Positions 25,032 to 30,751 of a DNA stretch of 32,660 nt are shown in pieces. How positions within the stretch are numbered: the first letter of the stretch is position 1; each line of letters opens with the position of its first letter. This DNA comes from Candidatus Heimdallarchaeota archaeon (GTDB lineage Archaea; Asgardarchaeota; Heimdallarchaeia; Heimdallarchaeales; DAOWED01): assembly GCA_030638685.1 (NCBI GenBank), contig DAOWED010000181.1:1-32660 (forward strand), written 5' to 3'. The notes beneath the pieces are model-generated. The model was not told the DNA's origin. It saw nothing but the letters and a program-made list of their open reading frames with translations, and ran no database searches. Position numbers and translations under genes: made by a program.

Positions 25032-25724
25032 TTGATGAGTAAAACATCATGTGCAGTGCGACTGGAAAACGTAACTAAAACGTTTTATCTGAACAATCAA
25101 GAAATCAATGTTCTAAAGGAAGTTAGTTTTTCAATTGAGAAAGGCTCCTTAAACTCGATTATTGGAGCTTCAGGTTCCGGGAAAACTACACTGTTGAACA
25201 TTATTGGAGCCTTAAATATTCCAACATCAGGGGAAGTGTGGCTTGATAATGAAAAGATTTCAGAGATGTCCCCTAAACAATTGGCATGGATAAGAAGTAG
25301 AAAATTAGGATATTGTTTTCAATCATATAATCTAATACCCGTGCTTAATGCCTATGATAATATTGAACTACCATTGTTGATAACTAAAACACCACAAGAG
25401 GAAAGAAAGGAAAGGGTACAAGAGTTACTAGAACTGGTAGGTTTATCTCATAGAGATACGCACAAACCACACGAATTATCTGGTGGAGAACAACAGAGAG
25501 TCACTATAGCACGAGCTTTAGCAAACTCTCCAGAAGTTCTTCTTGCTGATGAACCAACTGGTGATCTTGATGAAAAAACTGGTGAGAGAATAATTTCATT
25601 GTTGTTAGACATTAACAAGTCCATTTCTCAGACATTAATTATGGTAACTCACGATAAGTCAATAGCTGACCTCACAGATAACATTTTTGAGATGCATAAT
25701 GGTAGATTGGTTGATCTCCACTAA
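25032..25724 (+). CDS. ABC transporter ATP-binding protein (LolD/MacB type)
   Basis: Walker A '[12 protein letters not shown]', signature 'LSGGEQQRV', Walker B '[12 protein letters not shown]', H-loop 'MVTHD'. The start may be ATG 25035. Confidence 0.96.
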
Positions 25725-25845: not shown

Positions 25846-26226
25846 ATGGGATCAGGTGGTACTTTACTCGGTTCATTGATGCTCGGTGCATCTTTATTTA
25901 TTGGTGGCTTCAGTTTGTTTATCTTTACAAATTGGCACATCCCACTACTTTTCGTAGTTCTCGCTGGAATAATTGGAGGCATGTTTTTGGGCTCAATACG
26001 CTCAAGAAAAGCCCGTGTTCGTAAAAGTGTTAAGAATGAATATATTGCCTATTCTGGTCTTTCAATAGCCGTTATTTTCGGATTATCAATCTACTTTTTA
26101 TTATTTGAAAAAGAATCAATGCCAACAAAAGATTTTTCTTATCAAATTGTTACCGCATTAAACCTATTAGGTGCTGTTCTTGGCTATTTAGGAACAACTT
26201 TAGTTATAGCAAATATGGTCGATTAA
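25846..26226 (+). CDS. Small integral membrane protein
   Basis: 126 aa, about four TM segments; 1 bp from the next ORF. Confidence 0.7.
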   Translation: MGSGGTLLGSLMLGASLFIGGFSLFIFTNWHIPLLFVVLAGIIGGMFLGSIRSRKARVRKSVKNEYIAYSGLSIAVIFGLSIYFLLFEKESMPTKDFSYQIVTALNLLGAVLGYLGTTLVIANMVD

Positions 26227-27417: not shown

Positions 27418-28545
27418 GTGAACTTAATAAAGAAAAGAGCGCTCAAAAGCATAATGAAGGATTTACTTCTAGCTGGACTTGATGTTTCGTCATTATACAC
27501 TTCAGATAAAATTGAGAAAAATAATACATCAATTATTGATTTTAATGGGTCAGAAAATGCAAGAAAAAAATCCAGTAATCACTTTTCAATAATTAGAGCT
27601 GATGGAACAATTGCGGAAAGAACCTATTATAATTCATTAGGCCACTATCTTGTTCAGTTAGTAGATACAATGGTAAGTGAAAAAGAATTTAGTTACGTTA
27701 TTCCTGGCTCGGGATGGGATCTCTCACTTGAAAGTTCGATAACAAATGAATCCATCTTTGGTGAAGCAGAGTTGATAGGAACATCTGTTAAAAATTTCAT
27801 AAAAAGTAGATCATTAAAATACTCCTCAGATGAGATAAATAAACAAGGATTGGAAACGGTACCAATTAGTAGTGAAACAATAAATGAGAGTGTTTCAGTT
27901 GTCTTATCTGATTTTACATTTTCATCCAACCCCTTTTCCAGTTCTTTACAATTATTATCTGAATTGAGCTCATTTCAGACCGATAAAGAAATAATCAATT
28001 TAGGCTCCTTGAACAGTTCAAACAAACAATTGTTGTCATTACTCTATTACGTTACTGAAACAACAGTAGAATGTGTTATTATGTCGAGTTATGAGCATGA
28101 ACTTAGAGATAATGGTTTGATTATGAAAAGAATTCTTAAGGACACCAAAACAATTGAAACAACAGATCCATTGCATAGCGTACTTCCGCTGCTTGAAGAA
28201 CTCACTTTAAAGCTAGGGTGGTTAGGTTGGGGTCAAGTTGATTTAATCCAAAATAATGAATCAACTCTGAAGATCGTTGCACTTTATCCTTGGCCCACCT
28301 CTCTTTGTCATGGAATAAGATGGGCAGGGCTTGATCCTTTAGACTGGCAAATAAGATCGCTTAATGATGAAAAGTTAGATCCACCAACCCTAAAAAAAGA
28401 ACTCTACCATACACTTCTGTACTCCCGCAGAAATACTTTATCCACTTTACCAAAGGAGAAGAAAGTTGAACTAGTAGAAGTGCATCAAACAGGAACACCA
28501 ATACCCTCAAATATGGTTTCAACTCAGTATCTTTCAGATTATTAA
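27418..28545 (+). CDS. Divergent ATP-grasp-like protein (tentative)
   Basis: 375 aa; 'SYVIPGSGWDLSLESSI...ELIGTSVKNFIKSRSLKYSSDEINKQGLETVPI' and 'LGWLGWGQVDLIQNNESTLKIVALYPWPTSL' resemble the layout of COG2232-type ATP-grasp proteins. Could start at an internal Met. Confidence 0.45.
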   Translation: MNLIKKRALKSIMKDLLLAGLDVSSLYTSDKIEKNNTSIIDFNGSENARKKSSNHFSIIRADGTIAERTYYNSLGHYLVQLVDTMVSEKEFSYVIPGSGWDLSLESSITNESIFGEAELIGTSVKNFIKSRSLKYSSDEINKQGLETVPISSETINESVSVVLSDFTFSSNPFSSSLQLLSELSSFQTDKEIINLGSLNSSNKQLLSLLYYVTETTVECVIMSSYEHELRDNGLIMKRILKDTKTIETTDPLHSVLPLLEELTLKLGWLGWGQVDLIQNNESTLKIVALYPWPTSLCHGIRWAGLDPLDWQIRSLNDEKLDPPTLKKELYHTLLYSRRNTLSTLPKEKKVELVEVHQTGTPIPSNMVSTQYLSDY

Positions 28546-28672: not shown

Positions 28673-30751
28673 ATGAATAAATCTGAATCTATACCAGCAA
28701 TTAATTTACTGGAAATATTGAAAAAACCTACTGGGGCAACTAATGAACAACTAGAAGCAATTCTTGGTTCTTTATTACTTTCTCGAGAAATAAATATTTC
28801 AAAAATTGCAGTTAGTTTAGATTTAACACCCGATGATGTAGTTTTTATCATTGAAAAGGGAGAAGAGCATAATCTTTTCTCAGGTAGATTCTTACGTTCA
28901 AGATACGTAGTAGAGAAGTACAAGTGTGCTGTTCTCATGGATAATGCGTATATACCACAAGAAGGTCTAGACATATTGGGATATCTTTCTGGAAGAAGAA
29001 ATATGGATATCTCAGAAATAGGGAGTCTATTCAAATACACAAAAGATGAGGTTTTGCAATCGTTATATTTCTTTGTTACTCACGGATATCTATCAGGACG
29101 AATGAAAAAATCAAAATTAGAAGTACTACAAGTTGTTCCTCCATCAAGTCTAACCTCCCGTTCTGAAACCCAGATGGATTTAGATAGAGAAATCATAGGT
29201 TATTGTATATTGAGAAAAAGAGTTTCTCTAGATGAATTAGTTAAAGTGTTTGATGTAACACATATACGTTTATTCCGAGATGTATTTGGTTACTTCTTAA
29301 GGGATTTAGTAAGAGGGTCAATTGATGTTTCTAAAAAAGTTATGCGAACACCAGAAATATTGATCAAACTAACTTCTCTTAAAGACCTTGAAGAAACCCC
29401 AACATTCGACGCCATTTCTTCTCGAGAAAAACTTGTTTGTGGGGTGATTCAGATGAGGAAAACTATTACTCTCTCGCAAATTGGCAAGATTATTTTGATG
29501 AATAAAGACGAGTTAATTGAAATATTGTCTTATTTTTCGTTAACAAGATTTCTTTTAGTTCAATTAACTTCAAGAGATGAAGTTCATCTCGTTGCGGAAA
29601 GACGAATTACTTCAACCAGATCATTATCTGATCTTAAATCTCTAAGTATCTTTAATTATGGAGCCCTTGTTGGAATTTTAACAACAACACCTAATATCTC
29701 AATAAAGAAAATATCCCAAAAAATGAGGCAACCCCCAATTGAAGTTCTTTTGGGGCTTACTACTCTTATTAATGAAAAAATCATTCAAGGAAGATTGTCT
29801 CCTGACCACTATTTCATCACTCAAAACATAAAAGCACAAGCAGGAGGCAGTGAACAAGGGTTAACTGAATGGGAACAAATTCTTCTTGGGATGTTAATCT
29901 CGCAAGAGAAAGCATCAGTAATATATCTCGCTGAAATACTAAAAATAAGCAGAGCAAAAGCACTTGAGTATTGTTATGAGTTTTTATCAAAAGGAGTGAT
30001 AAGGGGGCAATTACTTAATGAAAAAGATTTATTATTGCATGAACTTCCAAGAGCACCACCTCTAAACCAAGTAGAAGATTTAGCTTTAGTATATAGAGAA
30101 ATTAGAGGGTATCTGATAATGAATGGCTCGGTAAAATCAAAGGATCCATTACCCATCTGGGAACTAAAACCCAAGGAATTTATGTTTATTCTTTTCAAAC
30201 TAGTGGGATCAGGTATGATTACTGTAATGGCAAATAACAAAGAAATTATTTATGAAGAACACCATAAAGCAACTCCAACAATTGCTCTAAGAGATATTGA
30301 CCCTTCTTATACTGTTATAAGTAACTATCTTGAACAAAAAGGAACAGCCTTATCAATAAAAGATCTGTCTCGAAGGTTAAACATGGATCAAAGACTGATT
30401 ATTAAAGCGTTAGGCCTTTTCGTTTCAGATGGTTATTATCCGTTGGGAAGAATCAGAAAGAATCGGTTCGATAAAGGTGGACCATTGATGAAAATTAGAG
30501 GGAAACCAAAGTGTTATCACTGCGGGAAAGAGATAGAAAATCCCGATCTTCCATGCTCTTCGTGCAGTAAGGCTTCACCAAAATGCTCTGTTTGTAGAGG
30601 TGCTTTGGTTACAACAGATAATATAGTTAGCTGTCCTCACTGTGAACATATGGCTCACAGAGAACACATAATACATTGGTTAAACATTCGTAGCAGTTGT
30701 CCCTTATGTAAAGGTCATCTTTCAGAAAGAAACTTGGTTGTGCACAATTGA
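28673..30751 (+). CDS. Tandem winged-helix protein with C-terminal zinc ribbon and RING-like domain, 692 aa
   Basis: About eight similar 60-70 aa wHTH-like units; C-terminal CYHC..CSSC ribbon and 'CSVCRGALVTTDNIVSCPHCEHMAHREHIIHWLNIRSSCPLC' (30584-30709). Confidence 0.8.
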   Translation: MNKSESIPAINLLEILKKPTGATNEQLEAILGSLLLSREINISKIAVSLDLTPDDVVFIIEKGEEHNLFSGRFLRSRYVVEKYKCAVLMDNAYIPQEGLDILGYLSGRRNMDISEIGSLFKYTKDEVLQSLYFFVTHGYLSGRMKKSKLEVLQVVPPSSLTSRSETQMDLDREIIGYCILRKRVSLDELVKVFDVTHIRLFRDVFGYFLRDLVRGSIDVSKKVMRTPEILIKLTSLKDLEETPTFDAISSREKLVCGVIQMRKTITLSQIGKIILMNKDELIEILSYFSLTRFLLVQLTSRDEVHLVAERRITSTRSLSDLKSLSIFNYGALVGILTTTPNISIKKISQKMRQPPIEVLLGLTTLINEKIIQGRLSPDHYFITQNIKAQAGGSEQGLTEWEQILLGMLISQEKASVIYLAEILKISRAKALEYCYEFLSKGVIRGQLLNEKDLLLHELPRAPPLNQVEDLALVYREIRGYLIMNGSVKSKDPLPIWELKPKEFMFILFKLVGSGMITVMANNKEIIYEEHHKATPTIALRDIDPSYTVISNYLEQKGTALSIKDLSRRLNMDQRLIIKALGLFVSDGYYPLGRIRKNRFDKGGPLMKIRGKPKCYHCGKEIENPDLPCSSCSKASPKCSVCRGALVTTDNIVSCPHCEHMAHREHIIHWLNIRSSCPLCKGHLSERNLVVHN

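Follow-up and report, generated by a model that had tools for sequence, protein, structure and literature searches.

A conserved winged-helix-array RING protein of Heimdallarchaeia, a predicted ubiquitin E3 ligase

The window analysed here is a stretch of 32,660 nucleotides that takes up contig C185 completely; it comes from a genome of the Asgard class Heimdallarchaeia (2.33 Mb assembly, 85.6% complete) that forms a family of its own within its order. Towards the end of the window lies an open reading frame for a protein of eight winged-helix (WH) units followed by a zinc ribbon (ZR) and a RING domain, which we call WH8-ZR-RING (Table 1). The frame and the repeat strings quoted for it in the initial annotation are present in the 692-residue translation. 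It is preceded, in this order, by the genes for an ABC ATPase, the membrane proteins c5 and c4 and an ATP-grasp-like protein, and a GH57-like frame follows. No Pfam match was obtained for c4; its AlphaFold2 model is of low confidence (pLDDT 61) and gave no Foldseek match below E 0.1. The first naming of the two flanking genes stands in part on direct evidence: the GH57-like protein is recognized by its own match, and the ATP-grasp-like protein only through a homologue (L124:7548-8849), which matches ATP-grasp_3 at 6e-25 and to which the window gene is related at E 8e-7.

Table 1. Genes and protein features around the WH8-ZR-RING gene (positions are those of the window).
Feature	Position	Strand	Remarks
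ABC transporter ATPase (LolD-like)	25032..25724	+	same-type ATPase adjoins orthologues in f2, f4
c5, small membrane protein, 126 aa, ~4 TM by eye	25846..26226	+	homologues near orthologues in f2, f3, f4
c4, polytopic membrane protein, 374 aa	26228..27352	+	homologues near orthologues in f2, f3, f4, f17
Divergent ATP-grasp-like protein	27418..28545	+	homologue near orthologue in f17
WH8-ZR-RING protein, complete ORF	28673..30751	+	ATG start, 692 aa; full-length orthologues 22-28% identity
WH unit 1 (residues 22-90)	28736..28942	+	AF2; unit-unit hhalign
WH unit 2 (residues 94-160)	28952..29152	+	AF2; unit-unit hhalign
WH unit 3 (residues 163-240)	29159..29392	+	AF2; unit-unit hhalign
WH unit 4 (residues 247-312)	29411..29608	+	AF2; unit-unit hhalign
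WH unit 5 (residues 327-390)	29651..29842	+	AF2; unit-unit hhalign
WH unit 6 (residues 397-458)	29861..30046	+	AF2; unit-unit hhalign
WH unit 7 (residues 470-534)	30080..30274	+	AF2; unit-unit hhalign
WH unit 8 (residues 542-604)	30296..30484	+	AF2; unit-unit hhalign
Zinc ribbon CxxC-x10-CxxC (residues 612-633; C614, C617, C628, C631)	30506..30571	+	ligands invariant, 24 orthologues
RING (residues 636-683)	30578..30721	+	ligands C638, C641, C654, C657, H662, H665, C676, C679
RING E2-contact-type residues V640, W669, P677; linchpin position K680			
GH57-like protein, cut by contig end	30872..32660	+	GH57 match 9e-8

Searching genome contigs with the single protein returned no related loci. A profile of the orthologues found 29 loci, for the most part in Heimdallarchaeota records, and the complete genome of Ca. 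Heimdallarchaeum endolithica is among the named records that carry an orthologue. Orthologues, either full-length or cut by a contig end, occur in nearly all of the 37 genomes of the Heimdallarchaeial order, two of which (G010 and G021) gave short matches only. Beyond the class there is one full-length homologue (G067, E 1.7e-93), and a genome of another family (G064) has a variant homologue that likewise contains WH units, a zinc ribbon and a RING. The orthologue alignment has 24 invariant columns, 12 of which are zinc ligands; the motif, residue and Pfam counts given below refer to a set of 24 orthologues. No description of an archaeal WH-array RING protein was found in Pfam or in the open-access library searched.

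The AlphaFold2 model (mean pLDDT 84.7, pTM 0.70), for which only the window and retrieved sequences served as input, consists of eight consecutive WH units followed by two zinc modules. In the model the WH folds span residues of about 24-83, 96-154, 165-236, 250-308, 329-386, 399-455, 472-530 and 544-600. The eight units are mutually homologous: profile-profile comparison of unit with unit by hhalign gave a probability of at least 75% in 55 of 56 ordered comparisons (median 95%), a level reached by none of 64 reversed-column controls (maximum 57%) and none of 85 unrelated-window controls (maximum 28%). The early count of about eight tandem units has thus become exactly eight, with the highest conservation in WH5 and WH6. 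In Pfam, PCI is the commonest WH match (16/24 members, and as strong as 3e-13 and 3e-14 in distant homologues), with scattered matches to TrmB, FeoC, DDRGK and TFIIE. The window protein itself scores 22.9 against PCI (PF01399; cut-off 22) over its whole length, with no single stretch passing, and the alignment covers the WH part alone (profile positions 34-60). We considered a PCI domain protein, in which helical repeats lead into a terminal WH, and set this assignment aside as the model shows WH after WH.

When the array was compared with the PDB by Foldseek, UFL1/DDRGK1 (8b9x) ranked first (E 3.6e-6, probability 1.00) with TM-scores of only 0.1-0.2, probably because the arcs curve differently. 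TFIIIC tauB and native UFL1 complexes (8ohd_A, 9gy4_E) occupied the next ranks, and RPC62 and SelB were also matched. A nucleic-acid- or ribosome-binding array resembling TFIIIC tau138, RPC62 or SelB, acting in transcription or translation quality control, would agree with the tauB, RPC62 and SelB matches, with the TrmB and TFIIE models that match some members and with the ribosome as the site of UFL1 action. We regard such a role as distinctly improbable, since the recognition helices are not basic, with a mean net charge near zero or negative in most units, PCI outnumbers the other WH matches and the RING is of the E3 type. The helix charge also disfavours a transcription factor array.

The two zinc modules were found exactly as the initial annotation had read them: the ribbon pattern CxxC-x10-CxxC is present, and the RING spacing C-x2-C-x12-C-x2-C-x4-H-x2-H-x10-C-x2-C, with a Trp after the His pair, is exact in 24/24 orthologues. 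No variation occurs at the twelve zinc ligands, W669 or P677, and the positions that are hallmarks of E3 RINGs are kept throughout the set (V/I640, W669, P677 and K/R680 in 24/24), the linchpin position 680 being mostly Lys instead of the commoner Arg. Every member matches zf-RING_2 (24/24). The best solved relatives in profile searches are RING-H2 E3s (Arkadia, RNF165, RNF24; E 1e-6 to 1e-9), followed by the ZR-RINGs of WDR19, WDR59 and WDR24. By Foldseek, the RING superposes on a human E3 RING/U-box entry (3lrq) with 1.0 Å over 55 columns (probability 1.00), and the alignment with IFT-A WDR19 (8bbg_A) spans the two zinc modules (88 columns, 24% identity); a cross-brace zinc geometry is predicted from these Foldseek matches. 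The domain thus counts among the true E3 RINGs of the RING-H2 type and has a relative in the RING of archaeal ubiquitin operons.

WH8-ZR-RING shares parts of this architecture with two groups of eukaryotic proteins. The first is that of GATOR2/SEA (WDR24, WDR59, MIOS) and IFT-A WDR19, in which a zinc ribbon is also followed by a RING, the two modules together aligning end to end with those of WH8-ZR-RING. However, these subunits carry a beta-propeller and an alpha-solenoid, whereas the model of WH8-ZR-RING has WH units only ahead of the ZR-RING, and we did not assign it to these coat subunits. The second is Nse1 of SMC5/6, which likewise combines WH domains with a RING. Nse1 contains two to three WH domains and a C4HC3 RING. 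An Nse1-like subunit of an SMC5/6-type complex, suggested by the combination of WH domains with a variant RING, would lack an explanation for the eight-WH array and the extra zinc ribbon; moreover, SMC_Nse1 (PF07574) is absent from the Pfam matches at E<=1, and the sixth ligand is His665 rather than Cys in 24/24 orthologues. SMC and kleisin genes were not seen among the recurrent neighbours examined. We regard this identity as very improbable and reject it. Of the initial proposal of an E3-like or SMC-associated scaffold, only the first half therefore survives, in the form of an E3-type RING and a UFL1-like array (8b9x).

The small RING of Caldiarchaeum acts as an E3, and its contacts with the E2 have been assigned to an invariant Trp and to hydrophobic loop residues (James et al.; PMC5654768). 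In a single-sequence phmmer search, WH8-ZR-RING matches the small RING encoded in Asgard ubiquitin operons (1.4e-12 and 3.7e-12), and the ligand spacing of two operon RINGs (L126, L127) is the same residue for residue. In one of them (L127) the small RING gene adjoins those for ubiquitin (PF00240), E2 (UQ_con 2e-33) and E1 (ThiF 1e-67), with a Vps23-like UEV protein and Vps4 in the vicinity. The archaeal operon RING (srfp of the Caldiarchaeum/Asgard operon; PMC5654768) shares with WH8-ZR-RING its RING sequence, the precise spacing of the ligands, the invariant Trp and the hydrophobic loop residues; both proteins occur with ubiquitin and E1, and srfp also with E2. Nevertheless, there are two clear differences. 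The operon RINGs consist of 76-103 aa, whereas WH8-ZR-RING has 692 aa with a ribbon and eight WH units, and its gene, unlike that of srfp, lies outside the ubiquitin operon.

A check of the window's genome for ubiquitin-system genes, recommended at the outset, found both ubiquitin and E1: a ubiquitin ending in GG (L128:5814-6050) lies beside a ThiF-type E1 (L128:6105-7187). The two UQ_con proteins of this 85.6%-complete assembly look UEV-like, and a canonical E2 was not found in it. Since strong UQ_con matches occur in 11/11 relatives searched, this absence probably reflects a gap in the assembly. Among 34 Asgard genomes picked for the presence or absence of the RING family, all 17 RING-positive ones have an E2 and the 17 RING-negative ones have none (Fisher 8.6e-10, a value that overstates independence because the genomes were chosen and 11 of the 17 negatives belong to one family). 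The association with E2 is one of the entire RING family rather than of WH8-ZR-RING itself, and the same contrast is seen inside a single family (f22).

The trio of ATP-grasp, WH8-ZR-RING and GH57 genes, whose conservation in related genomes the initial annotation had proposed to check, is not conserved as a functional unit. Elsewhere an ATP-grasp homologue occurs only in f17, and a GH57-like protein recurs weakly in f2, at a distance of several genes. What recurs instead are c4 and c5, joined by the ABC ATPase in three families. In f2, the WH8-ZR-RING gene is followed by one for a 107-aa protein and by the ABC ATPase gene about 360 bp away, and then usually by c5 and c4, whereas in an f4 locus (L056) ABC, c5 and c4 lie upstream. 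Two f3 loci with long upstream flanks (L071, L074) have c4 and c5 within about 5 kb, and a secreted PKD protein adjoins WH8-ZR-RING in 5/5 f3 loci. The f17 locus has c4 and the ATP-grasp homologue within 4 kb. The linkage is frequent, not universal, because another f4 locus (L061) has none of ABC, c5 and c4 within 8 kb. Profiles made from the f2/f4 cluster only find the window's c4 at 2.5e-26 and its c5 at 2.1e-13, and the c4 profile finds the f17 protein at 8.9e-13. Linkage is seen for c4 in five families (f1, f2, f3, f4, f17), for c5 in four and for the ABC ATPase in three. A later tally was made with enriched profiles that included some of the tallied members, whose E-values in it thus hold by construction. 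The recurrence of c4 and c5, which are without a known fold, and of the ABC ATPase therefore points to a membrane-associated role for WH8-ZR-RING. A gene for a JAB/MPN-domain (Rpn11/AMSH-type) protein with a likely C-terminal TM segment (L037:17077-17916, minus strand; JAB 4.6e-12) is of a type found about 7 kb from WH8-ZR-RING in several Heimdallarchaeaceae.

The same linkage to membrane-protein genes would suit a purely structural role, in which the zinc-ribbon-RING serves as a dimerization or assembly module and the WH array builds a membrane-associated complex with no ligase activity. The ZR-RINGs of GATOR2 and IFT-A, including WDR24 and WDR19 (8bbg_A), match over both zinc modules in about the same register, and some of them act structurally, the SEA RINGs as heterodimers (PMC9646525). 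We nevertheless find such a role unlikely: the beta-propeller and alpha-solenoid are absent, the E2-contact positions are all invariant or conservatively replaced, the RING family and E2 occur either together or not at all in the sampled genomes and the RING resembles that of the operon E3.

The reading that we prefer, with a probability of roughly 0.7, is that WH8-ZR-RING is a RING-type ubiquitin E3 of the Heimdallarchaeial ubiquitin system, its activity being predicted, with a WH arc that binds partners or substrates. The zinc ribbon would brace the C-terminal RING that follows it, and the RING would recruit the E2~ubiquitin thioester, which V640, W669, P677 and K/R680 would hold closed. The eight PCI/UFL1-like winged helices would form a rigid arc that serves as a protein-binding scaffold, not a DNA-binding array, and positions a substrate or partner complex, possibly at the membrane (a c4/c5/ABC complex). 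Ligase activity, E2 binding, the choice of substrate and the membrane location of substrates or partners are thus what we infer.

A precedent for a WH-repeat E3 scaffold is given by UFL1/UFBP1, which activates its E2 via WH domains alone (PMC9627666). This UFM1 E3 (UFL1/DDRGK1; PMC9627666, PMC10937380) shares tandem PCI-like winged helices with WH8-ZR-RING and is its best Foldseek match, although UFL1 is without a RING. The resemblance is one of fold, not of UFL1 membership: PF09743 (E3_UFM1_ligase) matches 0/24 members at E<=0.01, and UFC1 has no match in the window's 85.6%-complete genome. A distant homologue from another class (L125:7284-9272) reaches 25.5 bits against PF09743 (cut-off 23.2) and also matches PCI, RPC82 and TFIIE. 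Homologues of UFL1 and DDRGK1 have been reported in Asgard archaea as the origin of these proteins, with a suggested UFM1-independent role (PMC10183829), and they may include WH8-ZR-RING members. It is conceivable, though quite unlikely in our view, that WH8-ZR-RING represents an ancestral WH-scaffold ligase that used ubiquitin, one of a large and diversified pre-eukaryotic set of Asgard RING E3s, and that UFL1/DDRGK1 arose from it by loss of the RING and a switch to UFM1.

Accounts of the archaeal ubiquitin system have centred on a single small RING, and the multiplication of E3s has been tied to the evolution of eukaryotes (PMC5654768). As a conserved E3-type protein of about 690 aa with a UFL1-like scaffold across one Heimdallarchaeial order, WH8-ZR-RING suggests large, specialized ubiquitin ligases in relatives of eukaryotes, beyond the single small RING studied. 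If ZR-RING proteins are active ligases, substrate-selecting E3s predate eukaryotes. This idea is directly testable, since ubiquitin and ESCRT proteins of Heimdallarchaeia have been produced in recombinant form (PMC9192718).

ZR-RING modules are numerous in Asgard genomes: a single genome has as many as 27 within the class and 33 within the phylum (33 matches in G110, 27 in G044, 20 in G038, 18 in G007 and 2-3 in family f8); the f9 genomes listed have no match at E<=1e-6. These numbers amount to a large lineage-specific expansion. The modules sit on membrane, solute-binding, leucine-rich-repeat and winged-helix proteins. At several loci (L076, L077, L078, L080, L081, L085, L089, L090, L092), a ZR-RING forms the C-terminus of long proteins that have signal- or TM-like segments at the N-terminus; these include an extracellular solute-binding protein (L085, SBP_bac_5 1.7e-37) and proteins with CARDB-like ectodomains, and they look like putative transmembrane E3-like receptors in Heimdallarchaeia. 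One ZR-RING module lies in a 3558-aa open frame in Asgard family f20 (G080:C7:443672-443920, minus strand). The window's own genome encodes two further proteins of interest here. One (L132:1-3030, plus strand, contig C131), at least 1010 aa long, carries leucine-rich repeats and, at its C-terminus, a RING-like module from which the His ligands have been lost. The other (L002:751-1683, plus strand, contig C184) has 311 aa, in which a helical-repeat-like stretch separates an N-terminal TM segment from a RING whose ligands are similar; its gene lies upstream of a RadA-like recombinase gene.

Several further proteins resemble parts of the UFM1 pathway. Two from Heimdallarchaeaceae (L100:1501-2085, minus strand, and L101) are E2-fold-like and match UFC1 weakly, in Pfam at 1.4e-5, which narrowly passes the cut-off, and in the PDB at E about 0.03; UFC1 has been reported as exclusively eukaryotic, and they may be another type of E2. 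In f2, apparently winged-helix proteins of about 250-270 aa (L096:1210-2016, minus frame; L097:1225-2022 and L098:1279-2034, plus strand) score over the cut-off for PF09743 (UFL1) and are candidates for the reported Asgard UFL1/DDRGK1. A 582-aa protein of f5 (L099:1303-3048, plus strand) combines WH-like units with several CxxC zinc modules and has a UFL1-like match (E 3.2e-4); on contig G041:C13, its gene has UQ_con and ubiquitin-like matches close by.
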